Assembly (NCBI RefSeq): GCF_031656915.1
Contig: NZ_CP134227.1
Coordinates: 2,294,001-2,358,000, forward strand
Length of the DNA stretch: 64,000 nucleotides
Source of the DNA: Nocardioides marmorisolisilvae
Lineage (GTDB): Bacteria > Actinomycetota > Actinomycetes > Propionibacteriales > Nocardioidaceae
Reading direction: 5' to 3'
Shown: positions 24,840-43,628 of the stretch, one piece after another
Numbering within the stretch: position 1 is the stretch's first letter
Layout: each line of letters opens with the position of its first letter
Made by a program: the position numbers and the translations under genes
Notes under the pieces: generated by a model
Told to the model about the DNA's origin: nothing
The model's input: the letters and a program-made list of their open reading frames with translations, nothing else
Database searches by the model: none

Positions 24840-24846
24840 ACAGGAC

Positions 24847-27639: not shown

Positions 27640-27843
27640 TCACCAGGCGCTCGGTTCCTCGTTTAGGTTCTCCTCACGCAGCCGAGTCGCGTCGCGTCGC
27701 GCCTGGTCGAGCCACTTCTCATCATCGAGCAACCGCAGCGCGTGCCTGATCGCGACTGTGGTGGAGGCGCCCTCGGCGGCCGCGTCCTTGAGGATCCGCA
27801 AATCCTCGGTGTTCGGTCGGAACCCGATCGTCTTGCCTGCCAT
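27640..27843 (-). CDS. Antitoxin partner of MazF (ribbon-helix-helix type)
   Basis: A 67-residue protein directly upstream of the toxin. The N-terminal half (KTIGFRPNTEDLRILKDAAA, then STTVAIRHALRLL) looks like a ribbon-helix-helix DNA-binding domain; the C-terminal half is charged and probably disordered until bound to the toxin. Gene order, size and seven-base spacing fit a type II antitoxin that also represses its own promoter. The start is the ATG for MAGKTIGF; a GTG one codon upstream is possible. Confidence 0.78.
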   Translation of the reverse strand: MAGKTIGFRPNTEDLRILKDAAAEGASTTVAIRHALRLLDDEKWLDQARRDATRLREENLNEEPSAW

Positions 27844-28312
27844 CACGCGAACCTACACTCGTTGCACGTTTGTTCAACACACAGCTTTGCCGTTCACCCC
27901 GCCGGCCGCCGACGCTCGAAAACTCACGTGCGGCCACCAGCGCGACACCATGACCGATCCTTTTTACGAGACGCCCTCGAGCCTCTCACCCGCGGTTTTG
28001 CTGTTTTCGGCGAAACTTCACCACGTATTCCCCCACGACCAGCCAGACGAGACCGCCCTCCACCGGCACCAGCCGGGGGCTTTCAGACTGTCCCGACTAC
28101 CGCTTCGATCGATGCAGACACGTCTGGCAGTTCCGCGGTGACCACTCGCCTGCTTCGCCAACCTTCAAGGTGAGATGGACCGAGCACGCTCCGCTGACGG
28201 TTCGGCAACGCACGATCTGACCGGTATTCGCTACGCGCCTTCGCCACGCAACCGGTCCGCGCGGATGCAACGTCTCGGCGCCGCTCGCCCCAGCCGTTTT
28301 CGACGCCTCAGC
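27844..28312. other. Intergenic stretch without recognised gene
   Basis: About 470 bases between the antitoxin and the 3' end of the microcompartment operon. Translations are low-complexity and match nothing I know. It should contain the antitoxin promoter near 27850-27900. I found no hairpin followed by T residues that would end the microcompartment transcript. Confidence 0.5.
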
Positions 28313-29488
28313 TCAGCCCGCGAGCCGCGCCTGTACCGATCGCGCAGCCGCCTGCAGAGCGGACAACTCTGCCTTATCGAGGCGGTCTTCGATGACCTCG
28401 ACGACCCCTCCGCTGTCGAAGCGGGCTCGTACGCCGAGGAAGAGGCCATCGATCCCGTACTGGCCGGTGAGCATGACCGAGGCAGGCAGGGGGTCGGTGA
28501 TGGCTCCGCGGAGGGCATCGACGAGCTCCATGACCGCATGTGCGGGAGCGATAAAGGCCGACCCGGTCTTGCGCAGCTCAACGACTGCTGCGCCTCCATT
28601 GACCGCCTCGGCCACGGCCCGGTCGATCATGGCAGTCGACAGGACGTCACGCACGGGTCGGCCCTTGATCGTGGCACTGGAGACCAAGGGCACCATCTCG
28701 GCGCCGTGGCTGCCCAAGGTGATCGCCTGGACGTCGGCAGGTCGCACGCCCGCTACCCCAGCGAGAGCGTTGCGGAACCGGCTCGAGTCGAGGGTTCCGG
28801 CCATCCCGATGACCTGCCTCGCGGGGAGTGCGCTGCGCCGCCACATCTCGCTGGTCATCTCGTCGAGAGGATTGGTGACCACGATGACGACGGCATCTGG
28901 GGCGTGCAGGGCAATGGACTCGGCGATATCGTGGATGACTCGCGCATTAATGGCCAGCAATGCGTCTCGCGTCATTCCTGGACTGCGTGGTCGGCCGGCG
29001 GTGACCACGACGACGTCTGCACTTGCACACAGGTCGAGCGAGGTGCCGCCTCGGGCTCGAGTAGCCGAGCCGGTGATTCCCGAGGCGTGCTCGAGGTCCA
29101 GTGCGGTGGCGGCCGCAAGCCCCGGTACAACGTCGACCAGGCTCAGCTCGTCGGCAATTCCTGAGATCGCGGCCAGATGGGCAGCGGTGGCTCCAACCAT
29201 CCCGCTGCCGACGAATGCGATCCGGGTGAACCTGGTCGCGGCGAGACCGCGGCGATGAGGCGGTGCCACCCACCGAGGGGAGCGACGCAACAGCAGGCGC
29301 TGTACGGCACGAGCCGGGTCGATCGATGGCTGGGCGCCCATGGGTGCAGCTCGATGCTGGATGTCGACGCCCAGCCGGTCGGCGATGTCGAGGGCTTGGG
29401 GGGTGACCACGGCGTCGGCGTCGACGTACAGCTCCCGGTTGCCGGTGGCGGCCGCTCTGCGTACGTCGTACTCGGAGACAAGCGGCAT
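28313..29488 (-). CDS. Malate dehydrogenase with microcompartment-type N-terminal extension
   Basis: A 391-residue protein. Residues about 95-391 are an LDH/MDH-fold NAD-dependent 2-hydroxyacid dehydrogenase: IAFVGSGMVGATAAHLAAIS (Rossmann loop), AGRPRSPGMTRDALL (the substrate loop with both Arg of malate dehydrogenases, not the Gln of lactate enzymes), and the catalytic His in LGSHGAEMVPL. The first 50 residues (EYDVRRAAATGNRELYVDAD, then VVTPQALDIADRLGVDIQ) resemble short segments at the N-termini of several microcompartment enzymes, from memory, and a linker of about 40 residues follows. Last gene of the shell operon; its ATG overlaps the BMC-T stop. I infer it regenerates NAD inside the shell. 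Confidence 0.85.
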   Translation of the reverse strand: MPLVSEYDVRRAAATGNRELYVDADAVVTPQALDIADRLGVDIQHRAAPMGAQPSIDPARAVQRLLLRRSPRWVAPPHRRGLAATRFTRIAFVGSGMVGATAAHLAAISGIADELSLVDVVPGLAAATALDLEHASGITGSATRARGGTSLDLCASADVVVVTAGRPRSPGMTRDALLAINARVIHDIAESIALHAPDAVVIVVTNPLDEMTSEMWRRSALPARQVIGMAGTLDSSRFRNALAGVAGVRPADVQAITLGSHGAEMVPLVSSATIKGRPVRDVLSTAMIDRAVAEAVNGGAAVVELRKTGSAFIAPAHAVMELVDALRGAITDPLPASVMLTGQYGIDGLFLGVRARFDSGGVVEVIEDRLDKAELSALQAAARSVQARLAG

Positions 29489-30117
29489 CAGCGGCCCTCC
29501 GTCGACTCCAATAGGCTGGTTGCTGCCTTGACGGCGGTACGGACCTCTTCTTCGGTCCCCGTGATGAACAGCCGGCCGAAGCGGCCCACGGCGCGTACCT
29601 CGACGATCTTGATGCTGGCGTACTTCTCGGCTTCGTTGGCGGCCGCTGCGATGTAGGCGGCGGGCGAGCACTCAATGATGCCGAGCGTCTCACCGGGGAC
29701 GACCATCGAACCCTTGCGCCACTTGTTGAGCAGTTGGGCCTGGTAGGGCTCGACGGAGGTGATGATCTGATTGCTCTCCACCCGCGGAGCGATCCGGTCG
29801 GCCACCCCGAGGCCGGTGTGGTCGAGGATGGCGTCGCGCGCGGCGACGATCTCGGAGTTGTGCGGCGATCGGAGCATGAAGAACCCGTACTCACGCTCGA
29901 CGATCTGGCTGCAGGCTTCGATCCTGGCGGCCTTGAGCGCAACGTCGACGATTCGGAAGACCTCGTTTCCGGGGCCGAGTTCTCCAACGAGCACGGAGTC
30001 CCCCGAGAGGGGGATGGAACCGTAGACGGTGGCTCCGTTATACGCCGCGAACTGTGGCTGCATCCGGTCAATCTGCACGAACGCGCGAAGCTCGAAAGTG
30101 CTGTGGCTCTGGGCCAT
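29488..30117 (-). CDS. BMC-T shell protein (tandem BMC domains)
   Basis: A 209-residue microcompartment shell protein with two fused BMC domains that would trimerise into a pseudohexamer tile. The first domain starts LRAFVQIDRMQPQFAAYNGA and includes IVDVALKAARIEACSQIVER; the second starts near VPGETLGIIECSPAAYIAAA and ends with FGRLFITGTEEEVRTAVKAA. The sequence style (ESNQIITSVEPYQAQLLNKW between domains) matches the double-stacking trimers of BMC type HO, which can carry gated pores. Start and stop both overlap neighbours by three to four bases (TGATG), so its level is tied to the enzymes. Confidence 0.92.
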   Translation of the reverse strand: MAQSHSTFELRAFVQIDRMQPQFAAYNGATVYGSIPLSGDSVLVGELGPGNEVFRIVDVALKAARIEACSQIVEREYGFFMLRSPHNSEIVAARDAILDHTGLGVADRIAPRVESNQIITSVEPYQAQLLNKWRKGSMVVPGETLGIIECSPAAYIAAAANEAEKYASIKIVEVRAVGRFGRLFITGTEEEVRTAVKAATSLLESTEGR

Positions 30118-31514
30118 CAAGGGGTCCTCTCGAACAGGTTGTCCATGGTGCGCCACGGGCGCGACTGGTAGGCGATCCGTTTGATGTTGATCAGGTGCAT
30201 CGCGGTGACGTTGTCCGAGGTAATCGATCCGGACAGGGTCCCGGTGCCCAGCATGAAGCTCGGCTCGACGTCGGCGGAGTAGCCGATGCCGGCGTGCATG
30301 CACGGAGTATTGACGAACACCCGCCCGGCCGGGAGCGAGGAGAACAGGGTGACCACCTCCGGGTCGTTGGAGTGAAGCGATGCGCTGTGCCCCTCTCCCC
30401 CAAACTTGAGAATCTGATGGCACAGGTCGTAGCCCGATGCGCTGTCTGCGACCTCGTAGAAGGCGAGGACGGGCGCAAGCTTCTCAGCGGACAAGGGGAA
30501 CCCACGCCCCACGCCGTCCTGTTCGGCGATCAGGACTCTGGTGCGCGGAGGGACCTCAAAGCCAGCTCGTTGAGCCAGTGTGGCCGCGCTCTGGCCCACG
30601 TTCTCGGGGATGATGCCGAGGTCTGGTGCGAACAGGAGCCTGGCGAGCGCCTGGGCCTCGGAGCGGTTGCAGAAGTACCCCCCGTGGTCGCGAAGCTCCG
30701 CTCGTAGCATGTCTGCGATCGGACGATCGGCGACGATTGCCTGTTCGCAGACGCATCCGGTGCCGTGGTCGAAGTTCTTCGAGGTGAGGATGCCGTCGGC
30801 CACATCGGCGAGCTCGCGGGACATGGACCGGTCCACGTAGCAGGGCACGTTTCCGGGTCCGACCGCCAGGGTCGGCTTGCCCGAGGAGTACGCCGCTTTC
30901 ACCATCCCGGCGCCGCCGGTAGCGAGGACCACGGCTGTGCGGTAGTGGCGCATGAGCTCCGCGGTGCCTTCGATGGAGGCGGCCTGCATGCACTGGACGA
31001 GATCCTTCGGCGCTCCGGCCTGGACGGCGGCCTCGGCCATCACCATCGCCGTTCGATGCGAGGACTTGGCCCCGCGGGGGTGTGGCGCGCACACGATCGC
31101 ATTGCCTGCCTTGACCGCAGAGAGCACCTTGAAGATCACCAGAGCGGTGGGGTGCGTGACCGGGATCAGGCCAGCGACGACTCCCATCGGTTCGCCGATC
31201 GCGACGACCTTGGTCGCATCGTCTCGCCACAGCACCCCGAGCGTAGTGACGTTGGCGAGCCATTCGGCGACCACGCGTGAGTTGTAGAGGTTCTTGAGCC
31301 GTTTGTCCTCGACCTTGCCGTAGCCGGTCTCCACGTGAGCCAGCTCGGCCAGCGGTAGTGCTTCTCTCTCGGCTGCCGTCGCCATCGCCGCCACGACCTG
31401 GTCGACCTGGTCTGGTGTGAAGGCGCGGAACTTCTGCCAGGCCTCGTACGCCTTCAGCGCGCAGCTACGAGCTTCGGCAACGCTCTCTAGGTCCTGGAAG
31501 GCCATGGCAGCCAT
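30117..31514 (-). CDS. CoA-acylating aldehyde dehydrogenase of microcompartment type
   Basis: A 465-residue enzyme of the PduP/AdhE-like acylating class, converting an aldehyde, NAD and CoA to acyl-CoA and NADH. Marks are [51 protein letters not shown] and the nucleophile Cys254 in [10 protein letters not shown]. This is the signature enzyme of aldehyde-handling microcompartments. Its position between the shell genes makes encapsulation very likely. No phosphotransacylase (PduL) is present nearby, so acyl-CoA may be used outside or recycled by an unlinked enzyme. Its start lies one base beyond the stop of the opine dehydrogenase gene. Confidence 0.93.
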
Positions 31515-31515
31515 C

Positions 31516-32763
31516 TCACACGCTCCACCAGGTCATGGCCTGCGGAGCAACCTCCGCGGCTGTGCTCAACCGACGTCGCACGTCAGGCGGTCTGATTCCG
31601 CCCATGCCCAGGCCTTCTAGGCTGCGACCTGTCGACATGAGGTCATCGCCGATCAGGCAGCTGGCGAGCGCCACCACAGCCTCAGTTGCTGGGGTCGGCA
31701 CTCCGGCGTTACGTCCAGCTCGCACGAGCGGCACCATCGTGTGAGGGACGTCGTCGGTGACGTGTGGGCCGCCGGTGCCACCCACGGTCACCTCGTCGAA
31801 GATCTCCAGGTCGGCCATCACCGCGGCGAGGTCGTCATCGGCTCGGTCCAGGTCTTGCTGCTCGCGCGGGTCGAACGCCGCACGGAGCCAATCACCGGCG
31901 CTGGGTAGATCGCGGACGCCGTAGTGAAAGGCCACGTCGCGGCGTTCCTGGTCCAGCGCCCGAATAAGGGTGCCCGACAGCGCTGCGGGCACCAGATCGC
32001 GCAGAAGGACGGAGGAGTCCCGACCGTCCATCACGGCGACGTTGGTCAGCATTGGCGCCACGGCGATGACTCCGGTGACGGTCCCGAACGCTGTCACCAA
32101 GGGGCTGTCGACTGCGGTCAGGTGCGGCAACATCACGGACAGCCGCTCGACCACGCCCGAGGCCGCGTCAACGGGCAGCGTGGCCAGGTCAGCGGACCGG
32201 GTCACTCCCTGGACCGTCACGGTGGCGCCGATCCTGCTTGCCAGGTATGGGGTAGCGGCCAGCTCGCCGATGGTGAGATCCGCGCGGCAGTGGTGTCTGG
32301 CCAGGTCCTGCCGGAACGCAACCGATCCGAGGAACCGCCCTGGCACCAAGACGACGACCTGTCCGTCGACGAGTACATCAGCAAGGACACCGGCGTAGGT
32401 TGCATGCGCCGACGCCGGTGTGGCGACGAAGATCACCTCGGCGTTGATCACGGCCTGATCGACGCTGGACGCCAGCTTGATAGCTGGCTGCCCGGGCTGC
32501 GCCTCGCCCACGGCGTAGCTGCCGACGAGATGGTTGCCCCTGACCGTGATCGAGCCCTGCTCCTCCAGATCCTCGAGGTCGCGGCCGAAGACCGAGTGCA
32601 GGACGACGTCGAGTCCTGCGGCAAGAGCTTCGCAGGCGAGGAGCTGACCGACGGCACCGGCGCCGAGAACGGCGACGCGCCGGATCGGTGGGGCCGACAC
32701 CGGTCGCGTCGAGCCGGCCGTGTCGAGCGCGTCGACGAAGGATCGGAAGTCGGTCTGGGACAT
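31516..32763 (-). CDS. Opine dehydrogenase-family oxidoreductase
   Basis: A 415-residue NAD(P)-dependent enzyme of the octopine/nopaline dehydrogenase type. These reductively join, or oxidatively split, an amino acid and an oxo acid through a secondary amine. Residues 28-60 hold the Rossmann loop (RRVAVLGAGAVGQLLACEAL); ATPASAHATYAGVLAD closes the cofactor domain; the C-terminal helical domain follows. The first 25 residues (TDFRSFVDALDTAGSTRPV) look like an amphipathic helix with a linker, the form of known microcompartment targeting peptides. An opine dehydrogenase in a shell operon is unexpected. Its substrate could be an N-substituted glutamate made by the neighbouring synthase trio. Confidence 0.8.
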   Translation of the reverse strand: MSQTDFRSFVDALDTAGSTRPVSAPPIRRVAVLGAGAVGQLLACEALAAGLDVVLHSVFGRDLEDLEEQGSITVRGNHLVGSYAVGEAQPGQPAIKLASSVDQAVINAEVIFVATPASAHATYAGVLADVLVDGQVVVLVPGRFLGSVAFRQDLARHHCRADLTIGELAATPYLASRIGATVTVQGVTRSADLATLPVDAASGVVERLSVMLPHLTAVDSPLVTAFGTVTGVIAVAPMLTNVAVMDGRDSSVLLRDLVPAALSGTLIRALDQERRDVAFHYGVRDLPSAGDWLRAAFDPREQQDLDRADDDLAAVMADLEIFDEVTVGGTGGPHVTDDVPHTMVPLVRAGRNAGVPTPATEAVVALASCLIGDDLMSTGRSLEGLGMGGIRPPDVRRRLSTAAEVAPQAMTWWSV

Positions 32764-32768
32764 GGAGC

Positions 32769-33053
32769 TCAGGCGCTCGGCAGAATTGCGCTGAGGTCGT
32801 CGTGGGGCCGTGGGATCACGTGCACGGACAGCACATCGCCTACCTTGTTCGCCGCGACCGCGCCCGCGTCGGTGGCGGCTTTCACCGCGCCCACGTCCCC
32901 GCGGACAATGATGGCCACGAGGCCGCCGCCGGCTGATTCCTTGGCGACGATCTGGACATTAGCCGCCTTGACCATCGCGTCGGCGGCCTCGATGGCCGGC
33001 ACGACACCACGCGTCTCGATCATGCCGATGGCGACCTGAGGGATCTCGGCCAT
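32769..33053 (-). CDS. BMC-H shell protein (hexamer)
   Basis: A 94-residue single-domain shell protein that forms the hexameric tiles of the microcompartment facets. It begins [20 protein letters not shown] and continues [32 protein letters not shown] and [14 protein letters not shown], all diagnostic of the family. The pore-forming loop reads SAGGG, with small residues, suggesting a fairly open pore. It lies two bases after the pentamer gene and five before the opine dehydrogenase. Confidence 0.95.
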
Positions 33054-33055
33054 GG

Positions 33056-33385
33056 TTACCTACCTTCTGTTGCGGTTGAGGACGTGCGTCGACGGGGCCG
33101 CCCCGCACGGGTCTGTGTGGTGGCGACGGTGACCTCATCGAGGATCGCCACCACGGTCAGGTCGGTGGCGACCTGCCGGATCGAGGCGGGGATTCGCGCC
33201 GCGGATCCCCTGGCGAGCAGGACGAGCTGGCCCGGTGCCGCCGACGTGGTGTCGAGTGCGACCTCGACGGGACCCTCGGGTTCACCGATCGGCGAGATCC
33301 GCTGCACCAGAGTGAGCCGGTGTCCGTCGAATGTCGAATCCTTGACTGTGGCGGTGCACTGCCCGCGAACCTGAGCGATATCCAT
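33056..33385 (-). CDS. BMC-P shell protein (EutN/CcmL pentamer)
   Basis: A 109-residue vertex protein of the EutN/CcmL family, which caps the corners of the shell. It starts [20 protein letters not shown] and contains LTLVQRIS, the [20 protein letters not shown] region and [10 protein letters not shown]. The basic 20-residue C-terminal tail ([17 protein letters not shown]) is an addition to the usual fold. Its ATG overlaps the stop of the glutamine-synthetase-like gene, tying shell and ligase expression together. Confidence 0.93.
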
Positions 33386-34674
33386 CAGAACGCCTCGAGG
33401 TAACGGTCACGTTCGACGTCCGAGACCCGTTCGTTGACATAGGCGTGTTCGTGGCGTGCGGTTCCAACCACCACACGGATCAGGGTGTCGCCGAACACCT
33501 CCCTCGCGAGGTCGGACTTCTCGAGGGCTTCGGCGGCCTCGGGCACCGTTCTGGGCAGTACGGCGCCAGCCTCGTCGGCGTACGCGTCTGCGTCAGTGGG
33601 TGGACCCGGCTCGATCTGGTGCTCGACGCCATCGATCCCGGCGGCGATCTGAGCCGCCATGATCAGGTAGGGATTGGCATCGGAGGAACCGTCGCGCTGC
33701 TCGATGCGCACCGCACTCTCTGAGCCCTCGATGACCCGCAGGCCGACAGTGCGGTTGTCGTGGCCCCACGACGCCGTCTGGGGGCAGAACGAGTAGGCCT
33801 GCCGGCGCTTGTAGGAGTTGGGCGTGGGCGACCCGAAGAGCGTGAAGTCGGCCATGTGTCGCTGCAGTCCGCCGAGGTACCAGCGGCCGATGTCGGAGAG
33901 CTGTCGCCCGTCGGCGAACACATTGGCTCCGTCGCGCCACAGCGAGTGATGGAGGTGCACACCGCTGCCAGACTGATCGCGGGAGATCTTGGCCATGAAC
34001 GACGCGACATAGCCGTGCTGGGTGGCGATCTCCTTGACGGCGTTGCGGAACAGCACGGCGTTGTCCGCGGTATGCATGGCCTCGTCATAGCGGACGTTGA
34101 TCTCTACCTGCCCAGGCGCATACTCGGCATTCGCGGCCTCGATGGGGATGCCGAAGGCAATCAGATCGTTGCGCATCGGGCCGAGCGCGTCCTCGTACTC
34201 AGCCGCCCGCGCCAGTCCGTAGCACTGGATGTTGTCGTGACGCGGCTTCTTGGACACCGCATCGAGGAGGTAGAACTCGATCTCGAAGCCGATCCTGACC
34301 TCGAACCCAAGCCGCTCTGCGTGGGCAAGAACCCGCTTGAGGGCGCTGCGCGGCGAGACGGGAAGCTCGTTTCCCTCGTCGTCAGACGTCTCGCACAAGG
34401 TCAACGCAAATCCTGGACGCCAGGGCACCAGACGCAAGTCGTCCAACGGTGTGACGTGCATGTCCGGCCAGCCCTTGGAGGGATCGGCCCACTCGTCGTC
34501 CTCGCGGATCTCGCAGCGAGGCGTCCACGAGTATAGGACGCTTGCCATGTGGATTCCGCCCTCGGCTACGGCCGGCCAGGCCGAGGCAGGGATCAGCTTT
34601 CCTCTGAGCACGCCGGCGGCATCTGGAACCGCCAACTGCACGGTGTGCACTCCGTCGGGGAGTTCCTTGCTCAT
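33385..34674 (-). CDS. Glutamine synthetase-like gamma-glutamyl-amine ligase
   Basis: A 429-residue member of the glutamine synthetase superfamily. The ATP and metal sites are complete: IGFEIEFYLLD, ANAEYAPGQVEIN, SGSGVHLHHSL, NSYKRR and EQRDGSSDANPYL. The short length, lack of the adenylylation Tyr loop and context argue against a housekeeping enzyme and for a gamma-glutamylamide synthetase like GmaS or PuuA, which ligates glutamate to an amine. It is the first gene of the shell operon and is divergent from an amine oxidase-like gene. The ATG follows GAGGTG; a GTG two codons upstream is possible. The amine cannot be read from the sequence. Confidence 0.85.
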   Translation of the reverse strand: MSKELPDGVHTVQLAVPDAAGVLRGKLIPASAWPAVAEGGIHMASVLYSWTPRCEIREDDEWADPSKGWPDMHVTPLDDLRLVPWRPGFALTLCETSDDEGNELPVSPRSALKRVLAHAERLGFEVRIGFEIEFYLLDAVSKKPRHDNIQCYGLARAAEYEDALGPMRNDLIAFGIPIEAANAEYAPGQVEINVRYDEAMHTADNAVLFRNAVKEIATQHGYVASFMAKISRDQSGSGVHLHHSLWRDGANVFADGRQLSDIGRWYLGGLQRHMADFTLFGSPTPNSYKRRQAYSFCPQTASWGHDNRTVGLRVIEGSESAVRIEQRDGSSDANPYLIMAAQIAAGIDGVEHQIEPGPPTDADAYADEAGAVLPRTVPEAAEALEKSDLAREVFGDTLIRVVVGTARHEHAYVNERVSDVERDRYLEAF

Positions 34675-34714
34675 GGTCACCTCGGGTTTCCTCAGGTGCT
34701 GACAGGCTCGGCAT

Positions 34715-34728
34715 TACCGTATACGGTA
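34715..34728. promoter_or_regulatory. Perfect operator palindrome between ligase and oxidase genes
   Basis: TACCGTATACGGTA is a perfect 14-bp palindrome in the 100-base divergent promoter region, 41 bases from one start and 47 from the other. The CGTATACG core recurs at 39063 and 41804, with a degenerate copy at 39809, so it is the likely binding site of the GntR protein encoded at 39128. Confidence 0.7.
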
Positions 34729-34774
34729 TTCGAAAGCGGGGCAAGACCTCACCCCGGGATGGCTGGAGATACAA

Positions 34775-35914
34775 ATGGCACGCAGTACGTCAGCAGTTGT
34801 CGTCGGCGCTGGGATCGCAGGCGCGTCCACAGCGCTGGCGCTGCGTCGCCAAGGCCTCGCCGTGACCCTCGTAGACGCGTGGGAGCCAGGCCATGCGGCA
34901 GCCGCGTCGGGCGGCGAGCACCGGATCCTGCGGGCGAGCCACGGCACCGACGAGCTGTACGCGCGGTGGAGCCGCGACGCACGCGTCGGGTGGCTGCAGC
35001 TGGCTGAACAGACCGGGCAGGAGCTGTTCGTTCAGTGCGGTGCCGTGATGCTTGCCCGTGAGGGCCACACCTCATGGGAAGACGCTAGCCGTCAGACCCT
35101 GACTCGGCTCGGCATCCCGCATTTCGTTGCACCGGCGAGCGAGCTTCCAGCCCGGCTCCCGGTGCTGGATTCCCACGGCATCACCTACGGCCTGTGGGAG
35201 CCGGAGGCGGGGTTCGTCTACGCCCGGCGAGCGACGGTTGCGACCACCGAGCAGTTCCTCCACGAAGGCGGTGTGCTGCGGCGTGGCCGGGTGATCACGG
35301 ACAGCCGCGAGCATCCTCAACTCGACGGGCGACCGCTCGAGGCCGACGTCGTAGTGATGGCCTGCGGCGCGTGGATGGGCGGACTCTTCCCACGCTCGGT
35401 ACGCCGTCTGGTCGAGGTGGTGCGCCAGAACGTGATCATGATCGAGCCGCCAGCAGGAGAGACGGCGTACGACCACGGCTCATTCCCGTGCTGGATCGAC
35501 CATGGCAACAACGCCTACGGCATTCCCGCGGCGGGCGGCTACGGCTTCAAGGCGGTGCTGGTCTGGAAACAGCTCTCGATCGACCTTGACGAGGAGGACC
35601 GGATCGTCGATGCCACGTCCATCGCGCGCACCCGACGCTACATCTCCCAGCGCTTCCCGGGCTTGGCCGATCGTCCAATCAGCGGGATGGCGGTGGGCCA
35701 GATCGCGAACACCATCGACACGCACTTCCTGATCGACCGCCACCCCGAGCACGACCGCGTGATCCTGGTGGCCGGCGATTCGGGCCATCTCTTCAAGCAT
35801 GGGCCCGTGGTCGGTGACTACGTCGCCGGTCTGGCGCTGCGCCGCTACGAGACCGACCCGCGGTTCAGGCTGGGTGCCCGCGGCACCATCGACCCGGCGA
35901 GCCGACCCCAGTAA
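34775..35914 (+). CDS. Sarcosine-oxidase-like FAD-dependent amine oxidoreductase
   Basis: A 379-residue DAO-fold flavoenzyme of the monomeric sarcosine/N-methyltryptophan oxidase type, which oxidises secondary amines to imines that hydrolyse to aldehyde and amino acid. The FAD-binding loop is VVVGAGIAGASTALALRRQG; GGYGFKAVLVWK holds a Lys at the oxygen-activating position of sarcosine oxidase; VAGDSGHLFKHGPVVGDYVA is the C-terminal FAD motif. The Cys that carries covalent flavin in the family is replaced (GQIANTIDTHF instead of a CMYT-type sequence), so flavin should be non-covalent. In context it would split an N-alkylglutamate. Divergent from the ligase gene across a shared operator. Confidence 0.82.
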   Translation: MARSTSAVVVGAGIAGASTALALRRQGLAVTLVDAWEPGHAAAASGGEHRILRASHGTDELYARWSRDARVGWLQLAEQTGQELFVQCGAVMLAREGHTSWEDASRQTLTRLGIPHFVAPASELPARLPVLDSHGITYGLWEPEAGFVYARRATVATTEQFLHEGGVLRRGRVITDSREHPQLDGRPLEADVVVMACGAWMGGLFPRSVRRLVEVVRQNVIMIEPPAGETAYDHGSFPCWIDHGNNAYGIPAAGGYGFKAVLVWKQLSIDLDEEDRIVDATSIARTRRYISQRFPGLADRPISGMAVGQIANTIDTHFLIDRHPEHDRVILVAGDSGHLFKHGPVVGDYVAGLALRRYETDPRFRLGARGTIDPASRPQ

Positions 35915-35929
35915 CGCGCGCACCCGACA

Positions 35930-35946
35930 GCCGTCGTTGGTACGGC
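35930..35946. terminator. Weak hairpin between convergent genes
   Basis: GCCGT-cgttggt-ACGGC in the 49-base gap between the converging oxidase and glutamate-synthase-like genes could form a small bidirectional terminator. The stem is only five pairs and no T run follows on either strand. Confidence 0.3.
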
Positions 35947-35963
35947 GGATGCTGGACCCACCC

Positions 35964-37376
35964 TTACCAAGTGAAGGGACGGTCCGCGCCGACCAGAGAG
36001 ATCCCCGTGAACGCGCTCGCCTCGAGGGTCAGCGCGCGCAGGTCCTCGGGCTCGAGGTTGTGCACACTGGACTTGCCACATGCCTTGGCCAGCAAGGTGG
36101 CCTCCATCGTCATCGCGGTCAGGAATCGATAGACACGTTCAGACGCGGCCTCGACGTCGACCCGGGACGAGAGGACCTCGTCCTGAGTGGCGACCCCCAC
36201 CGGGCAGCGGCCGGTATGGCAGTGGTGGCAGGCACCCGGCTCGGTGCCGATCGCGGTGTAGTCCTCGACGTATCGCGGAGAGTTGCAGCCCAGCGAGATC
36301 ATCGCCGCCGAGCCGATCATCACGCAGTCGGCACCCAACGCAAGGGCCTTGGCGACATCGACGCCGGAGCGGATCCCTCCGGCGGCAACCAACTTGACCT
36401 TGCCGGACATCCCGGTGTCGTCAAGCGCACGTCGAGCAGCCGGGATGGCAGCGAGGGTGGGGACACCGGTGTTGTCCAGCAGGAGCTCTGGCGAGGCGCC
36501 CGTGCCACCCTCGAGTCCGTCAACAACGATCACGTCGGCGCCCGTCTTGGCTGCGACTGCGGTGTCGTAGTAGGGGCGAGTGGCGCCCATCTTCACGAAG
36601 ACTGGGACCTTGTGATCAGTTGCTTCACGCAGCTCCTCGATCTTGATGGTCATGTCGTCGGCGCCCAGAAAGTCCGGATGGCGCGAGGTCGATCGCTGGT
36701 CGACGCCCTGCGGCAGATTCCGCATCCGGGCCACGCGCTCAGAGACCTTCATGCCCAAGAGCAGTCCACCCGTGCCGGGCTTGGCGCCCTGCCCGACCAC
36801 GATCTCTACTGCGTCGGCCCTACGGATGTGATCGAGATCGATCATGTAACGAGCCGGTGAGAGCTGGTAGAGCAGAGTCCGGTTCTCCGCACGCTCCTCC
36901 TCAAGCATTCCGCCCTCTCCGGTACACGTCATCGTGCCGGCCTTCTTCGCGCCACGACCCAACGCTGCCTTGGCATTGGCCGAAAGGGCACCGAAGCTCA
37001 TCGAGGCGATGTAGATGGGGATGTCGAGCTCGACCGGGTTCTCGACCAGGCCGAGGCCGTCGCCCAGGACGGTTCTGGTCTCGCAGCGCTCGCGGTAGCC
37101 CTCGAGAGGAAGCCGAGTCATCGTCGCGGGCTGGAAGACCAGTTCATCGAAGGACGGGAGGTTCTTCTGGAACGTGGAGAATCCCCGGAGCTGGTATCGC
37201 CCGAGCTGGGACTTGGCGTGGATGTCCGCGATCACCTCACGGGTCCAGCGGGGTGACTTGCCCTCGGCATACGACGAAGGGACCCCGGCAGGGCGCCCCT
37301 CGACGCCGCCGTCACCGAAGGTGACCAGGTTCTCGTCGGCGATCAAGACCGGCTCGGACGTCAGATCATCAGCCAT
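35964..37376 (-). CDS. Glutamate synthase-like FMN/Fe-S subunit (N-methylglutamate synthase type)
   Basis: A 470-residue protein equal to the central FMN-binding barrel of glutamate synthase. It shows IYIASMSFGALSANAKAALG, VGQGAKPGTGGLLLG, the barrel end VKLVAAGGIRSGVDVAKALA and the cluster region GACHHCHTGRCPVGVAT with Cys for an Fe-S centre. With the next two genes upstream it makes the three-part enzyme seen as MgsC, MgsB and MgsA in the N-methylglutamate pathway, which transfers an alkylamino group from a gamma-glutamylamide to 2-oxoglutarate. ATG for MADDLTSEP; it overlaps the upstream gene by 16 bases. Confidence 0.85.
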   Translation of the reverse strand: MADDLTSEPVLIADENLVTFGDGGVEGRPAGVPSSYAEGKSPRWTREVIADIHAKSQLGRYQLRGFSTFQKNLPSFDELVFQPATMTRLPLEGYRERCETRTVLGDGLGLVENPVELDIPIYIASMSFGALSANAKAALGRGAKKAGTMTCTGEGGMLEEERAENRTLLYQLSPARYMIDLDHIRRADAVEIVVGQGAKPGTGGLLLGMKVSERVARMRNLPQGVDQRSTSRHPDFLGADDMTIKIEELREATDHKVPVFVKMGATRPYYDTAVAAKTGADVIVVDGLEGGTGASPELLLDNTGVPTLAAIPAARRALDDTGMSGKVKLVAAGGIRSGVDVAKALALGADCVMIGSAAMISLGCNSPRYVEDYTAIGTEPGACHHCHTGRCPVGVATQDEVLSSRVDVEAASERVYRFLTAMTMEATLLAKACGKSSVHNLEPEDLRALTLEASAFTGISLVGADRPFTW

Positions 37377-38083
37377 TTCTTTGCATCCCTTGCCTCGAAG
37401 TACCAAAGCTTCTTACCGGCGACGATCCGTTTCCAATCGCGCCCCGACCCGTCGATCCCGAGCGCGCCAAGCTGTGCCTCGACCTCGTCGACCTCGGCCT
37501 GCTCGGGTGTCACCACCACGGCGTCGATGCCGAGGGTCTCGATCTCGCCGGCCACCCACACGGTTCCCTGCCACAGTGAGTCGCCCACCGATCCGCGGGA
37601 GTTTCCCAGGCAGACGATCCGTCCGCCGTGGCTCATGAAGCCCGTCGAGTAGCCGATGTCGCCCTCGACGGCGATAAGTCCGTCCTTCTGCGCGACCCCG
37701 CAGCGCGGCCCAGCGTTGCCACGGATGTGAATGATGCCCCCGCGCATGGCGGCTCCGACGCTCATGCCGGCGTTGCCGTTGACGGTGATGTGTCCACTCG
37801 CCAGGCCCTCCCCGGTCCCCCAGCCACTATTGCCCTCGACCACGATGCGGCCGCCGTCAGACAGGCCGCCGCAGTAGTAGCCCACGCTGCCCTTGAAGGT
37901 GACCAGGCCCGGGCCGGTCAGGGCAACACCAAGGTTGTGACGTGACAGCGGGTCATGGACCTCGATGTCGCGACCAGCATCGACGGCCGCACGAATCTCC
38001 CTGTTCACCTCACGGATCGGGCGATCCCCCGCACTGATCCGCACCGGGGCCGACGCCTCGATGCCGGCAGCCAGGGCGCTCAT
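37361..38083 (-). CDS. Glutamate synthase-like GXGXG-domain subunit
   Basis: A 240-residue protein consisting of the right-handed beta-helix (GXGXG) domain that ends the large subunit of glutamate synthase. Repeats are plain: VTFKGSVGYYCGGLSDGGRI, VVEGNSGWGTGEG, ITVNGNAGMSVGAAMRGGII, HIRGNAGPRCG. It is structural, linking amidotransferase and FMN domains. It corresponds to MgsB. Its ATG overlaps the amidotransferase stop (ATGA), and its own stop lies inside the FMN-subunit gene, so the three subunits are made in step. Confidence 0.85.
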   Translation of the reverse strand: MSALAAGIEASAPVRISAGDRPIREVNREIRAAVDAGRDIEVHDPLSRHNLGVALTGPGLVTFKGSVGYYCGGLSDGGRIVVEGNSGWGTGEGLASGHITVNGNAGMSVGAAMRGGIIHIRGNAGPRCGVAQKDGLIAVEGDIGYSTGFMSHGGRIVCLGNSRGSVGDSLWQGTVWVAGEIETLGIDAVVVTPEQAEVDEVEAQLGALGIDGSGRDWKRIVAGKKLWYFEARDAKKWLMI

Positions 38084-39027
38084 GCCGCAGATCCGGTCGC
38101 CACGGGCTGGAGTCCCCAGACCTCGGTCATCAACGGCCCGTCGTAGTTGTGCACCTCGACCTCGTCACGGTAGATGCTGCGCAGCGCCTGCTCCTCGGTG
38201 GCGATCGCAATTCCATCGGCCTCATCGACCACGGCCAGGGGCTTGATCGCCCAACGATCCTTGGCCATCCCGATGCCGTCGATTGTGCCGAGCAGATAGG
38301 TGAACACGCCGTCCAACTCGCTCTGGCTTCGGATCAACGATTCCTGCAGGCTCAGCCCCTCGGACATCTGGACCGAGTTCCACACCGCGATCAGCTCGGA
38401 GTCGTTCTCGCTGCCGAACCGGTAGCCTGCGCGTTCCAGGCGTCGACGCCAGGTGAAGTAGTTGGTCAGCTGACCGTTGTGGACGATGCAGACGTCGGGG
38501 AAGGGGCGAGCCCAGAACGGATGGCTTGCGATCGGGGAGACCAGCGACTCGGTCGCCAGGCGCATGTTCGACAACGCGTGCGTCCCAGACATCTTGGAGA
38601 CACGGTGCTTGGCATCGACTGCGCGGGCATCCCCGACGTCCTTGATGATCTCCAGAGATCGTCCGACCGAGAGCAGTTCCACCCCGGTGAGCTGCTCGAC
38701 TGCGTCGACCCATGTGGGGAGGTCGTTCGGCTCGGTGATCTCGAGTCGGAACAGAACGTGTTGCTGACCCGAGTCATCCGAGGTGGGCTCGGCGCTCAGA
38801 GAGGCCCCGCTGTTCTTGAGGCGATCCTCGATCGCCTGCAGCGTGGGATCCAGTGCGGACCTGTCGGCGAGGAACCCGCGTACGACGAAGCCATCGCGGC
38901 GGATGGGTCCGTAAATGGCGAAGCCCGTGGAGTCCGGGCCGCGATGCCGCATGCGAGCGGCGAGCTCGACGATGTCGGCGCCCACCGGTCCTCCGTCGTA
39001 CCGCACCCGCCCTGAGATCCCACACAT
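38080..39027 (-). CDS. Class II glutamine amidotransferase-like subunit
   Basis: A 315-residue Ntn-hydrolase-fold protein with the nucleophilic Cys immediately after the initiator Met (MCGISGRVRYDGGPVGADIV) and the family motifs RMRHRGPDSTGFAIYGP, HALSNMRLATES, VCIVHNGQLTNYFTWRR and FGSENDSELIAVW. It corresponds to the N-terminal domain of glutamate synthase and to MgsA, which would release the amine from a gamma-glutamylamide. It is first in the synthase trio and has a CGTATACG palindrome 36 bases before its start, so the trio probably has its own regulated promoter. Confidence 0.87.
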   Translation of the reverse strand: MCGISGRVRYDGGPVGADIVELAARMRHRGPDSTGFAIYGPIRRDGFVVRGFLADRSALDPTLQAIEDRLKNSGASLSAEPTSDDSGQQHVLFRLEITEPNDLPTWVDAVEQLTGVELLSVGRSLEIIKDVGDARAVDAKHRVSKMSGTHALSNMRLATESLVSPIASHPFWARPFPDVCIVHNGQLTNYFTWRRRLERAGYRFGSENDSELIAVWNSVQMSEGLSLQESLIRSQSELDGVFTYLLGTIDGIGMAKDRWAIKPLAVVDEADGIAIATEEQALRSIYRDEVEVHNYDGPLMTEVWGLQPVATGSAA

Positions 39028-39062
39028 CTGGGCTCCTCCTCATTGTCACTCACACCGCGTTT

Positions 39063-39070
39063 CGTATACG
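39063..39070. promoter_or_regulatory. CGTATACG operator before the synthase trio
   Basis: The core CGTATACG sits within CCGCGTTTCGTATACGGTAT, an imperfect wider palindrome, 36 bases upstream of the amidotransferase start. Same core as the perfect site at 34715. Confidence 0.62.
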
Positions 39071-39127
39071 GTATGCGGAATGGAGACAGATGGCAAGCGC
39101 GGCCCGGGCCGACCGACCGAGGATCGG

Positions 39128-39778
39128 TCAGGCCTTGTGCACGTCCAGCCCGGCGCGAATGTGTGCGCTCATCTCCTCGTACGCCGCCTCGGGGCCCTTG
39201 CGAAGCGCTCGCACCAACGGCTCGTGGGCCCGGGAGACCGAGACCCGGTTTCGCTCGTGAGCGAGATAGTCCGCGAACATGGCGAGACCGCGCGCACCCT
39301 GCCAGATCTCGTCGAAGACGTCGAGCATCACGGGGTTCTCGAGAACCTCCACGAAGGAGCGGTGGACTGCGAGGTTGGCTCGGTAGACGGCTTGAACGTC
39401 TCCGAGGTCAGTGCCCCCCACCGAGTCGACGACCTTCTTGATGTAGTCGAACGCGGGTTTACCCAGCTCGGCCGCCATCCGCGCGGAGTAGCACTCAACG
39501 GCCTCCCGAGCCTGGTAGAGATGGACCGAGTCGTCGGGGACGAACTCGCGCACGGTGTAGCCACGCCGTCCCGAGGGCTCGATCATCCCCTCGCGCTCGA
39601 GCCGCAGCAGCGCGTCACGAACCGGCGTACGGCTGATGTCCAACTGCTCGGCGAGCTGGTCCATCACCAGTCGCGCGCCCGGCTCAATCGTTCCGGCGAG
39701 AAGAGCTTCGGAGATCCGCTGGTAGGCACTGTCTGCCAACGTGGTGCCCATCCGGTCGATCGGTTTCATCCCTGGCAT
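39128..39778 (-). CDS. GntR-family regulator (FCD type) of the microcompartment locus
   Basis: A 216-residue regulator. The winged helix covers residues about 12-75 (SEALLAGTIEPGARLVMDQL, then ISRTPVRDALLRLEREGMI) and an FCD ligand domain follows (RANLAVHRSFVEVLENPVML contains the usual Asn/His metal-site pattern). FCD regulators bind short palindromes with a GTATAC-like centre, and such sites precede this gene, the synthase trio, the ligase/oxidase pair and the permease. The ATG for MPGMKPID follows GAGGA; upstream in-frame sequence is low-complexity. It is divergent from ridA. I infer it controls the whole locus in response to the amine or a derivative. Confidence 0.9.
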   Translation of the reverse strand: MPGMKPIDRMGTTLADSAYQRISEALLAGTIEPGARLVMDQLAEQLDISRTPVRDALLRLEREGMIEPSGRRGYTVREFVPDDSVHLYQAREAVECYSARMAAELGKPAFDYIKKVVDSVGGTDLGDVQAVYRANLAVHRSFVEVLENPVMLDVFDEIWQGARGLAMFADYLAHERNRVSVSRAHEPLVRALRKGPEAAYEEMSAHIRAGLDVHKA

Positions 39779-39808
39779 CGCGTCCTCGTCCTGTCGTGTA
39801 CAGAACAT

Positions 39809-39816
39809 CGTATTCC
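39809..39816. promoter_or_regulatory. Degenerate operator between gntR and ridA
   Basis: ATCGTATTCCGT keeps one good half (CGTAT) of the CGTATACG site and lies 31 bases from the gntR start and 34 from ridA, matching the placement of the other copies. It may give weak autoregulation. Confidence 0.4.
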
Positions 39817-39849
39817 GTCCAACACATCCCACTGCGCAAGGAGACACCG

Positions 39850-40290
39850 ATGAGCCAGCCGATCGACTCGATCGACCAAGCCGTACAGGGGCACGGACGC
39901 TTCGAGAAGCTCGGCGGTTACGCCCGGGTACGCCGGGTCGGCGCGATGGTCTATGTGGCAGGTACAACCGCGATCGAGCCATCGGGCCGACTGCACGCGC
40001 CCAATGACACCTACGCCCAGACCCGGTTCACACTCGATCGAATCGCGGCCGCTCTGAGCGAGGTCGGCGCCGACATCGCGCACGTCGTACGCACTCGCGC
40101 CTACCTCTATGACCTCGGAACCGCTGCAGACTTCGCCCGCGCGCACGGCGAGGTATTCGCCTCGATCCTGCCGGTGACCACGGCGGTCCAAGCGGGGCTG
40201 ACCACGCCCGGCATGATGGTCGAGATCGAAGTCGAAGCAATCGTTCGCGATCTTGCCGCGGCCGACGGGCGGCCCGAGCCGACCGTCTGA
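39850..40290 (+). CDS. ridA: RidA-family enamine/imine deaminase
   Basis: A 146-residue YjgF/YER057c/UK114 protein. Trimers of this family hydrolyse reactive enamines and imines. VRRVGAMVYVAGTTAIEPSG, RFTLDRIAAALSEVGADIAH and VRTRAYLYDL are typical, with the active-site Arg in VVRTRAYL; PGMMVEIEVEAIVRD closes the fold with the conserved Glu. Amine oxidation by the neighbouring flavoenzyme gives an imine, so this partner makes sense. The ATG follows AAGGAGA. It is divergent from the gntR gene. Confidence 0.9.
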   Translation: MSQPIDSIDQAVQGHGRFEKLGGYARVRRVGAMVYVAGTTAIEPSGRLHAPNDTYAQTRFTLDRIAAALSEVGADIAHVVRTRAYLYDLGTAADFARAHGEVFASILPVTTAVQAGLTTPGMMVEIEVEAIVRDLAAADGRPEPTV

Positions 40291-40303
40291 TCCACCGCCG
40301 CGA

Positions 40304-41773
40304 TCAGGCGGCGGCGATGTCCGCGTCCGCGATCTCGTCATAGGCCGCAGCATTGCGCGCCCGCAGGATGAAGGCCTGGACCAGGCCTCCGACGACAGCC
40401 ACCCCGATCAGGGCGAGCAGGAAGATCGAAACCTTGCCAAATACCGGGTTGCCGGCCGAGTTCACATCACCGACCAGGAGCGGAAAGTTCTTCGCCGTAA
40501 TCCAGGCGCTCCAAGCCAGACCGATCAGGGCGAGGACCGGGGCTAGCCTGACGGCCCACCAAGATTCGCCGCTCAACCCTGCGCGCGCGAAGTACACCAA
40601 GACGGCGACGGTACACACTGCCAGCAGCATGATGTAGACCATCGAGCCCAACCCGACAAACCAGGTGAACATCTTCAGGTACGGGTCCATCCCGGCGATC
40701 AGGCAGATCACCACGAGGATCCCGGACGCGACCGTGGTCGTGATCGATGCGGAGCTGGGCGCACCGTCGCGACGGTGGACGCCAGAAAGGTACGAAGGCA
40801 GCGCACCGGCCAACGACAGGGCATGCAGATAGCGGGTGGTGATCGTGTGGAACGCGAGCACTGCGGCGAAGATGCTGGTGATCACCAGCAGATGGGTCAC
40901 GAACTCGCCAACGCCTCCGAGCTCTGCGCGCGCCGTGCTGAAGAGGAAGTTGGGGTCGGTGGCCGCACGCTTGACGACGTCACCCGAGCCCCAGGCCATC
41001 ACGAACGCCCACGACGCGAAGGTGTAGAACAGGCCCACCACAACGACCGCCGCGTACGTCGCCCTCGGCACGGTGCGGTGCGGATTGACCGCCTCGTCGC
41101 GAAAGATCGCGGTCGCCTCGAAGCCGATGAAGGACGCCGCCGCGAACATCAGCGCCAGAGAAGGGGCACCCGCGGTCACCGTGCTGGGTGTGAAGGATGT
41201 CAGGTTCAGGCCGTGGGCGCCGCCCTTGCCGAGCGCGACCAGAGAGATCAGCAGGACAATCGTCAACTCGAGACTGAGGAGCACGGCAAGCACACGCGCG
41301 CTGAGCTCGACGTGGCGAGCGCCGAGCCAGCCGACAGCAATCAGAGCGACAGCCGTGTACACCGACCAATGGATGTTCGCGTGCAGGTAGTGGTTCACTC
41401 CGTCGTTGAACTCGTACCCGATGTACCCGAGGACCCCGACCTCGATAGCCATGTAGCACAGGATGGCGGCGTAGGCAGCCGCGAGCCCTGCCGGCCTACC
41501 CAGGCCGTGCGCGATGTATGTGAAGAACGCACCCGGCTTCGGAACATGCCTGGTCATCGTGGTGAAGCCGACCGAGAAGAGCAGCAACAGAACCCCCACC
41601 AGCGCGAACATCGCCGGAAAACCGGCTCCGTTCCCGAAGGCGAAGCCGATCGGCACCACCCCAGCGATCACGGTCAGCGGCGCAGCCGCCGCGACCACCA
41701 TGAAGACAATCGCTGGAACACCCAGCGAACCGTGCAGTTTCCGAGCGCTCTCTTCGACCATGGTTCGGCTCAT
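40304..41773 (-). CDS. APC-superfamily amino acid/amine permease
   Basis: A 489-residue integral membrane transporter with about twelve hydrophobic segments. It opens LHGSLGVPAIVFMVVAAAAP and includes TRHVPKPGAFFTYIAHGLGR and FIGFEATAIFRDEAVNPHRT, the unwound-helix motifs of the amino acid-polyamine-organocation family. It is the best candidate to import the amine substrate of the microcompartment pathway. A CGTATACG site lies 31 bases before its start, placing it in the same regulon. It converges with ridA, leaving 13 bases between the stops. Confidence 0.9.
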   Translation of the reverse strand: MSRTMVEESARKLHGSLGVPAIVFMVVAAAAPLTVIAGVVPIGFAFGNGAGFPAMFALVGVLLLLFSVGFTTMTRHVPKPGAFFTYIAHGLGRPAGLAAAYAAILCYMAIEVGVLGYIGYEFNDGVNHYLHANIHWSVYTAVALIAVGWLGARHVELSARVLAVLLSLELTIVLLISLVALGKGGAHGLNLTSFTPSTVTAGAPSLALMFAAASFIGFEATAIFRDEAVNPHRTVPRATYAAVVVVGLFYTFASWAFVMAWGSGDVVKRAATDPNFLFSTARAELGGVGEFVTHLLVITSIFAAVLAFHTITTRYLHALSLAGALPSYLSGVHRRDGAPSSASITTTVASGILVVICLIAGMDPYLKMFTWFVGLGSMVYIMLLAVCTVAVLVYFARAGLSGESWWAVRLAPVLALIGLAWSAWITAKNFPLLVGDVNSAGNPVFGKVSIFLLALIGVAVVGGLVQAFILRARNAAAYDEIADADIAAA

Positions 41774-41803
41774 GCTTCCACCTCGGGCCCGCGTTACGTA
41801 TTT

Positions 41804-41811
41804 CGTATACG
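41804..41811. promoter_or_regulatory. CGTATACG operator before the permease
   Basis: TTTCGTATACGGAG, the same core as the sites at 34715 and 39063, stands 31 bases before the permease start on the minus strand. Confidence 0.62.
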
Positions 41812-43466: not shown

Positions 43467-43628
43467 CGTGGCAAAGCCGCCCATTGCCTTCGCGCGCCCA
43501 CCTAACGGGTCCGAGGGGACACCTGGGCCACAGCCCTGGCCGGCGATGCGCTCGAACGACTTGCGCGGCAAGCGGCGGGACCTAGCTAGAAGGCTTGGTC
43601 CGGCGGAGCCGGAATTTCGGGTCAAGTC

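Follow-up and report, generated by a model that had tools for sequence, protein, structure and literature searches.

Many of the metabolosome types treated in the main text of the 2021 catalogue of bacterial microcompartments (MIC2-7, MUF2-3 and others; PMC8217296) have no obvious aldehyde-making enzyme; for the locus considered here, a source of the aldehyde can be proposed. The locus occupies positions 28,313-41,811 of a 64,000-nucleotide stretch of the Nocardioides marmorisolisilvae genome (GCF_031656915.1, NZ_CP134227.1, 2,294,001-2,358,000 of the forward strand), referred to below as the window, and combines shell genes of a bacterial microcompartment (BMC) with genes for an acylating aldehyde dehydrogenase (AldDH), an opine-type dehydrogenase (ODH), a malate dehydrogenase (MDH), a glutamine-synthetase-like ligase (GS), an MgsABC-like glutamate synthase set, an FAD oxidase of the sarcosine-oxidase family (DAO) and RidA. 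We consider it probable that the locus encodes a metabolosome for a small primary amine, which would pass via a gamma-glutamylamide and an N-alkylglutamate to an aldehyde and an acyl-CoA. It is from properties of the sequences, namely gene content, conservation, residue losses and clades, that we infer every reaction, the location in the lumen and a C2-C3 substrate.

In the proposed pathway, the GS-like ligase would join the amine to glutamate at the expense of ATP, and MgsABC would shift the amine from the resulting gamma-glutamylamide onto 2-oxoglutarate and reduce the product, yielding N-alkylglutamate and glutamate. The N-alkylglutamate would then be split into glutamate and aldehyde, in one form of the locus by the NAD-dependent opine-type dehydrogenase with its encapsulation-peptide-like N-terminus, and in the window's form, whose ODH lacks the catalytic His, probably by the FAD oxidase together with RidA. 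Within the shell AldDH would turn the aldehyde into acyl-CoA, and the MDH, with its EutQ-like domain, would regenerate NAD+ by converting oxaloacetate to malate. The same order of intermediates had been put forward in the initial annotation; it finds comparative support in co-conservation, the MgsC clade, the ligase residues and a shell-less relative, with the change that in the lineage of the window cleavage has probably passed to the flavoenzyme.

The gene set recurs well beyond the genus. A scan with a BMC-T alignment covered a collection of 84,980 species and yielded at least 80 loci; among the 80 BMC-T-similar loci listed and fetched, 21 carry GS, ODH and AldDH of this type. The other 59 lack an ODH match, though L119 has a partial generic GS and L096 an MgsC fragment of 53 residues. 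An AldDH search gave a match at E 1e-90 in 21 of 395 other genomes of the phylum, and of the six places fetched, those in G472 (AldDH 62% identical) and G623 (46%) contain the whole set, including MgsABC and GS, all in one direction; L043, L044, L046 and L047 have shell genes and AldDH (43-47%) but lack matches to GS, ODH and Mgs. For two other actinobacterial classes (345 and 349 genomes), a search with an ODH profile returned 24 ODH matches (G472 and G623 included), of which 14 places were fetched, adding four loci (L183, L184, L191, L194); L182 and L190, whose contigs equal those of L065 and L079 in length and match them, were not added to the count. The total of at least 28 loci (the 21, the window, L042 and L045, and these four) is a lower bound because the BMC-T scan listed only its best matches. 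They are spread over Actinomycetota, Alpha- and Gammaproteobacteria and Desulfovibrio, the carriers including Nocardioides sp. TF02-7, Thermocrispum agreste, Ruegeria strains, other Paracoccaceae/Rhodobacter, and metagenome-assembled genomes (MAGs) of Hyphomicrobiales, Thioglobus and Thermoleophilia, besides the one of Desulfovibrio.

GS is present in all 28 loci. MgsC adjoins the shell operon in 23 of them, made up of L183, L191 and 21 from the first 24; the three early exceptions have an MgsC copy of 71-73% identity elsewhere in the genome, against a baseline of 51-60% for MgsC copies in other genomes of the class. Among the first 24 loci BMC-H is found in all and BMC-P in 23. The initial annotation had suggested a search for co-occurrence of MGS-like and GS-like genes with the shell operon in other genomes; as judged by these counts, the co-conservation of amine genes and shell operon holds across phyla. 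RidA copies of 60-69% identity occur in 15 of the 21 related loci, with two more lying just beyond the fetched stretches (L048, L049), and partial homologues of the GntR regulator (28-56%) in seven of them. The APC permease, which the initial annotation had also included, is present in the window; comparison with the 21 related loci gave no match to it at E 1e-10. Other APC-family genes adjoin L042 and L078.

The importers of the related loci bear on another reading, in which the cell takes up, in place of a free amine, an N-substituted amino acid or a gamma-glutamyl compound (such as an opine or a theanine-like gamma-glutamylalkylamide) and GS and MgsABC handle its nitrogen afterwards. A branched-chain-amino-acid-type ABC importer in many proteobacterial loci (clusters of 12-14 loci), a class I glutamine-amidotransferase-like gene in nine, and the closeness of ODH to opine dehydrogenase would fit that reading, which we nonetheless hold to be unlikely: an ATP-spending GS would be unneeded for an imported opine, yet no locus is without one, and the ABC importer of the window is of a different kind from that of the related loci. 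L054 gives an example of the glutamine-amidotransferase-like gene and the importer, at 3136-3831 and 12249-16888.

As to what the ligase may act on, the 24 BMC ligases were aligned with E. coli GlnA, PuuA and six plasmid GmaS-like proteins. The position of Asp50 of the ammonia enzymes holds Asp in none of the 24, Ala or Ser standing there instead (Ala in the window), and the Glu of the Glu-flap is absent from all of them (Phe, also in the window; the L048 frame is broken at this point). The roles of both residues in ammonia-using GS are given in passages of PMC7948447, and identity as an ammonia GS was rejected on these two absences. In L048 (Nocardioides sp. TF02-7) the GS frame, near 5.3-6.5 kb, appears frame-shifted near the Glu flap, by assembly error or mutation. 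The passages on GmaS in PMC7948447 have its Asp177 deprotonating methylamine; this position is Asn in 23 of the 24 BMC ligases, the window's among them, and Ala in one. Of the GmaS-like ligase of the initial annotation, the family was borne out; the ammonia-specific enzyme that would have spoken against it is argued against by sequence, and the Asp characteristic of methylamine use is missing.

Methylamine itself, in an encapsulated N-methylglutamate pathway with formaldehyde caught as formyl-CoA, is accordingly downgraded, and this variant is improbable in our estimate. Formaldehyde is an aldehyde that needs confinement, which counts in its favor, as does the MgsC of the window, 55% identical to a protein of an N-methylglutamate-type plasmid locus of Paracoccus that also holds dimethylamine-monooxygenase-like and sarcosine-oxidase-type subunit genes. 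The MgsA and MgsB of the window are 32% and 31% identical to proteins of that locus, the ligase is only 29% identical to its counterpart in the N-methylglutamate pathway, and the MgsABC of the window has the N-terminal-Cys amidotransferase and FMN subunit that the N-methylglutamate pathway requires. Besides the substitution of Asp177, what weighs against methylamine is that no folD, purU or four-subunit sarcosine-oxidase-type gene is found among the window genes annotated (here and below, the subset scanned for families), that the solved structures closest to AldDH are those of acetaldehyde enzymes, and that two genomes (G815, G817) hold an ordinary MgsC (54-55%) besides the BMC type, suggesting a second role for the latter. 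In the kinetic data quoted from PMC7948447, RhGmaS has a Km of 27 µM for methylamine and 58 µM for ethylamine, and therefore a ligase of related kind can use a C2 amine. Because of the AldDH relationship and the ligase pocket, a C2-C3 amine such as ethylamine or ethanolamine is favored, as a guess at the substrate.

In the MgsC tree the BMC-linked copies (21 rows) form one side of a branch with an SH-aLRT (Shimodaira-Hasegawa-like approximate likelihood-ratio test) value of 99, the other side holding six copies from plasmids and 14 from actinomycetes; this tree omits matches below 250 residues and L130, which duplicates the window. In the GS tree, 23 of the 24 BMC copies fall in one branch (96), which also holds L031, a copy of the L042 locus kept under the label ACT; L001, L003, L004, L010, L119 and matches below 250 residues were left out. 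The AldDHs of 21 of the new loci form a branch (SH-aLRT 99), joined (SH-aLRT 99) by those of ten loci that fit the description of the MIC1 metabolosome in the main text of Axen et al. 2014 (PMC4207490) in having BMC-H, AldDH, BMC-T, HAD and MreB-like genes, and in most cases MDH and a Zn-alcohol dehydrogenase, the MIC1-like label coming from this text and not from a database call. The AldDH and BMC-T trees left out duplicate loci (L001-L006, L010, L030-L041), AldDHs below 150 bits or 300 residues and BMC-T proteins below 150 residues. The MIC1-like loci are L067-L070, L072, L073, L077, L081, L084 and L085 (Pseudonocardia, Piscinibacter, Methylibium, Gordonia, Prauserella and others), and L069 also has a PPDK/PEP-utiliser-like gene and a PucR-type regulator. 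The new type differs from MIC1 by its GS, MgsABC, ODH and DAO, and no Zn-alcohol dehydrogenase, HAD/phosphatase or MreB-like gene is found among the window genes annotated, all three being present in L069.

At the aldehyde-making step the window departs from the initial annotation, whose opine-dehydrogenase assignment is right as to family: the best solved match of a profile of 13 ODH sequences is N-(1-D-carboxylethyl)-L-norvaline dehydrogenase (1bg6, E 7.3e-76), which is matched by a model of the L042 enzyme (predicted local distance difference test, pLDDT, 85) with a template modeling (TM) score of 0.93, and which is also the best fold match of the window model (pLDDT 80, TM 0.85). The window copy differs from 1bg6 in its N-terminal helix and linker, in its position in a shell operon, and in having Ala in place of His202 (1bg6 numbering, from the ODH profile alignment), Asp297 being kept; we take these two residues to be the catalytic ones of 1bg6. 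Among the first 24 loci the His is present in L042, L045, L065, L078 and L079, and the remaining 19 have Ala (2), Thr (1) or Glu (16), the Glu being found in all 16 proteobacterial copies with DAO. It is these 19 loci, that of the window among them, that have a DAO with 42% identity or more (42-75% in 18 of the 21 loci of this type from the BMC-T scan), and 18 of them have RidA nearby, the stretch of the nineteenth (L057) stopping at a contig end.

This rule was formulated before L183, L184, L191 and L194 were found, and all four fit it: L183 and L191 keep the His (L191 with a DAO of 26%), and L184 and L194 have DAOs of 48% and 56% with Glu or Val at the His position. Altogether, the His is kept in all seven loci without a close DAO in the fetched stretches, each having His and Asp or Glu at the positions of His202 and Asp297, and lost in all 21 whose DAO reaches 42% identity or more. 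At E 1e-10 no DAO match was obtained in the genomes of L042, L065 and L078, and those of L045 and L079 gave only matches of 27-29%, one of which adjoins L045. The His is also retained in each of seven ODHs that came from fetched places lacking shell genes. The DAO in turn matches monomeric sarcosine oxidase (E 1.3e-30) and, at E 1.1e-17, N-methyl-L-tryptophan oxidase (2uzz); enzymes of these kinds release formaldehyde from N-methyl amino acids. The pattern and these relatives therefore suggest that ODH and DAO may be alternative ways of performing the same step and that, in the lineage of the window, where the ODH has lost its His, the flavoenzyme probably took over the cleavage. The pattern may stem from few evolutionary events, and independence of the individual cases is not claimed.

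A more tentative account, which we hold to be somewhat less likely than not, goes further: the opine-type dehydrogenase would be the founding signature enzyme of a previously undescribed kind of microcompartment, splitting N-alkylglutamate inside the shell, and in the lineage of the window and in Proteobacteria it would have become a catalytically altered or dead cargo protein still kept in the organelle, with the oxygen-using flavoenzyme and RidA taking over aldehyde production. If this is true, the Glu at the lost His position in the 16 proteobacterial copies would mark a new role of the ODH.

For the capture of the aldehyde, the AldDH has as its best solved relative the acetylating acetaldehyde dehydrogenase 5j78 (E 1.8e-118), and the Cys of the xDxGTxC motif is present in 24 of 24 copies, acylating activity being presumed from the family. 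MDH is found in 22 of the first 24 loci, in 21 of them with the N-terminal extension, and the His, Asp and two Arg of its motif, which we take to be functional residues of the family, are conserved in all 22. The N-terminus of the window MDH is 38% identical to that of EutQ over 42 residues (E 1e-3 with the full-length query, 8e-6 with a set of five sequences). Axen et al. (PMC4207490) report that in PVM loci NAD+ recycling is predicted to fall to a lactate/malate dehydrogenase. L078, a locus of the Desulfovibrio MAG in which MDH is lacking, has RnfC/PduS-like, two-BMC-domain and stand-alone EutQ-N-like genes following BMC-T (10618-12936); the two-BMC-domain gene is PduT-like, a label given by likeness. 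With regard to targeting, the model of the window ODH has a helix at residues 3-15 followed by a low-confidence segment at 17-22, and ODH N-termini, as well as the AldDH C-termini of L045 and L079, look encapsulation-peptide-like by position and by eye.

It has to be noted that several observations weigh against this reading of the locus. In an amphipathicity shuffle test only five of the 14 ODH N-termini tested (of 24), and neither of two AldDH C-termini, fell below 0.05. No targeting signal was recognised on DAO, GS or MgsABC, so that the assignment of steps to the shell interior can only be conditional, and in the form found in the window the aldehyde may arise outside the shell. L045 and L191 have an intact ODH and, nearby, a distant DAO (26-28%). 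A PduL-type phosphotransacylase (PTAC, PF06130) was not found in 23 of the 24 host genomes, the window's included, many of these being MAGs and the EutD type lying outside the search. MgsABC was not found in the L184 contig or in the first 55.9 kb of the L194 contig, the search being limited to these stretches. In the trees, L078 has a long-branched MgsC and a GS that is not part of the BMC GS branch. By both AldDH and BMC-T, L045, L078 and L079 are separate from the branch of the other 21; for L045 and L079 the amine genes group with the rest, which is not clearly true of their shell genes and AldDH. The shell and the amine genes may therefore have come together on more than one occasion.

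Also to be counted here is the occurrence of MgsC-like genes (51-60% identity) in 32 of 295 other genomes of the class without any such locus. Together with the MIC1-like sister loci, which have a similar shell and AldDH and neither GS nor MgsABC, it would fit a view of GS and MgsABC as mere neighboring nitrogen-assimilation genes that re-fix ammonia beside a shell for an unrelated aldehyde. We regard this as highly unlikely in light of the separate clade of BMC-linked MgsC, the ligase without the ammonia residues, and the resemblance of ODH and DAO to enzymes acting on N-substituted amino acids. Moreover, GS, ODH and MgsA/B also stand together without a shell: L192 (G1437:C218, 0-13.9 kb) has GS (42%) and ODH (46%, His kept), with MgsA (40%) and MgsB (38%) divergent from them, and no shell gene or AldDH match in its 13.9 kb, the contig stopping where MgsC could follow. 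Downstream lie three aldehyde:ferredoxin oxidoreductase genes, two ferredoxin-like proteins and a PF02133-type permease, so that this one case would tie the amine genes to aldehyde chemistry outside a microcompartment.

The preferred reading, an amine metabolosome, shares features with several known systems. With the N-methylglutamate pathway (GmaS, MgsABC and a four-subunit dehydrogenase) the locus has in common the GS-like ligase and the three-gene MgsABC layout; it differs by its shell genes, its acylating AldDH and a distantly related ligase lacking the methylamine Asp, and no four-subunit N-methylglutamate dehydrogenase is present among the window genes annotated near the locus, no genome-wide search having been made. 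The RMM (amino-alcohol) metabolosomes are also actinobacterial, with an amine-derived aldehyde and an APC permease, and have an aminotransferase and a kinase beside the shell genes, neither of which occurs among the window genes annotated. Two shell loci of a congener and a family member (L007 in G017 and L008 in G028), with two BMC-T matches and a gene of 428-430 amino acids before AldDH, look RMM-like, a label taken from layout without a family search; their AldDH is only 37-38% identical to that of the window, and they have no GS, MgsABC or ODH match. Shell protein kinds, acylating AldDH and EutQ-like domain recall the EUT and PDU metabolosomes, from which the window differs in having no ammonia-lyase or diol dehydratase among its genes annotated and in carrying a single gene for each of its three kinds of shell protein, and the new type in its apparent lack of PduL-type PTAC.

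A literature search that paired microcompartments with N-methylglutamate, GS, glutamate synthase and alkylamine terms found, in the texts it covered, no microcompartment of this composition and no prior substrate for the gene set, a point that the initial annotation had left to be checked. The portions of PMC12180729 and PMC9397018 concerned deal with compartments in general and the known eut organelle and do not describe it, nor is it described in those of PMC9052549 and PMC12339742. The main texts of the 2014 (PMC4207490) and 2021 (PMC8217296) catalogues, their supplementary locus lists being outside the scope, contain neither "glutam" nor "opine" as a term; the locus may stand in such supplements as a type without function (e.g., MIC2-7).

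All the genes named in the initial annotation are present, with family matches far beyond chance (Table 1), and its block of shell, AldDH, ODH, MDH and GS genes holds, with corrections to the arrangement. DAO, on the plus strand, separates MgsC from GS and so divides the minus-strand genes into two blocks, MgsA-MgsB-MgsC (39027 to 35964) and GS, BMC-P, BMC-H, ODH, AldDH, BMC-T and MDH (34674 to 28313), with the GntR regulator, the plus-strand RidA and the APC permease upstream. MDH/BMC-T, BMC-T/AldDH and BMC-P/GS overlap by one base; the starts of MDH, BMC-T, GS (alternatively GTG at 34680), MgsC and RidA were corrected to those tabulated. The shell set is small, the window having a single BMC-H, a single BMC-P and a single BMC-T gene. 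A promoter scan of the GS-DAO intergenic stretch found none, and a RidA candidate at 27742-28173 was rejected for want of a family match in favor of the tabulated gene.

Table 1. Features of the locus, in window coordinates, with the family matches behind each call
Feature	Position	Strand	Family evidence
MDH, malate dehydrogenase (MDH/LDH family) with EutQ-like N-terminal extension of ~90 residues; candidate NAD+ recycler	28313..29488	-	NF004863 above cut-off
BMC-T, CcmP-like shell protein	29488..30117	-	PF00936 E 1.5e-9; NF053796 (CcmP) 209.8 bits, below its 340 cut-off
AldDH, CoA-acylating (TIGR02518/AdhE-type)	30117..31514	-	PF00171; TIGR02518 (acetylating acetaldehyde dehydrogenase) 467.5 bits, below its 620.1 cut-off
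ODH, opine-dehydrogenase homologue, N-terminal helix and linker, His202-equivalent Ala	31516..32763	-	PF02317 E 4.5e-12
BMC-H shell protein	32769..33053	-	PF00936 E 3.2e-27, above cut-off; 63.5% identity to E. coli EutM over 85 residues
BMC-P shell vertex protein	33056..33385	-	PF03319 E 1e-20, above cut-off
GS-like, proposed gamma-glutamyl-amine ligase	33385..34674	-	PF00120 E 2.1e-95
DAO, sarcosine-oxidase/N-methyltryptophan-oxidase-like FAD enzyme	34775..35914	+	PF01266 E 1.9e-46
MgsC-like FMN glutamate-synthase domain	35964..37376	-	PF01645 E 9.1e-96
MgsB-like GXGXG subunit	37361..38083	-	PF01493
MgsA-like class II amidotransferase, start MCGIS	38080..39027	-	GATase_6/7; MCG start motif
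GntR/FCD regulator, true start probably further inside	39128..39982	-	PF00392, PF07729 from residue 83 on
RidA-type imine/enamine deaminase (frame 39796-40290)	39850..40290	+	PF01042 E 2.3e-21
APC-family permease, possible substrate importer	40304..41773	-	PF13520

The genome of the window, a single contig of 4.23 Mb, has one BMC-P, two BMC-domain matches and, at a threshold of E 1e-90, one MgsC, with no second AldDH of this kind at E 1e-20. Of 57 other genomes of its genus, family and order, three have a BMC-P; for GS, the best match across 390 others of the order has 39% identity, and transposases of the IS1595, IS630 and IS256 kinds flank the region; the locus is therefore presumed to have arrived horizontally. 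At the downstream edge of the shell operon (26378-27632) lie a piece of an IS1595-type transposase and a PemK/MazF-like toxin gene, and at 42354-45224, beyond the permease and before the IS630/IS256 transposases, genes of 370 amino acids (weak DUF4365, below cut-off) and 531 amino acids (no Pfam or NCBIfam match). A separate group at 15735-26184 comprises a branched-chain-type ABC importer, CoA-transferase III, AtuA-like and acyl-CoA dehydrogenase genes and two small proteins, and is not shared with the related shell loci. Its ABC transporter (21243-26184) was rejected as part of the system: the binding protein and one permease are unmatched in the 21 related loci, the ATPases match only generically (32-42%, in 12 loci), and the other permease does so at 26-31% in five.

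What the proposed pathway offers is a concrete source of aldehyde for a metabolosome, in which the amine is captured on glutamate, the product cleaved and the aldehyde caught as acyl-CoA, and it would bear on the MIC1-like loci that pair AldDH with malate dehydrogenase. The loss of a catalytic His by an opine dehydrogenase inside an organelle would provide a natural before-and-after case, and the Ruegeria strains among the carriers make the pathway directly testable. If it is true, alkylamine use by actinomycetes, marine Ruegeria and SUP05-type bacteria would join the functions of microcompartments.

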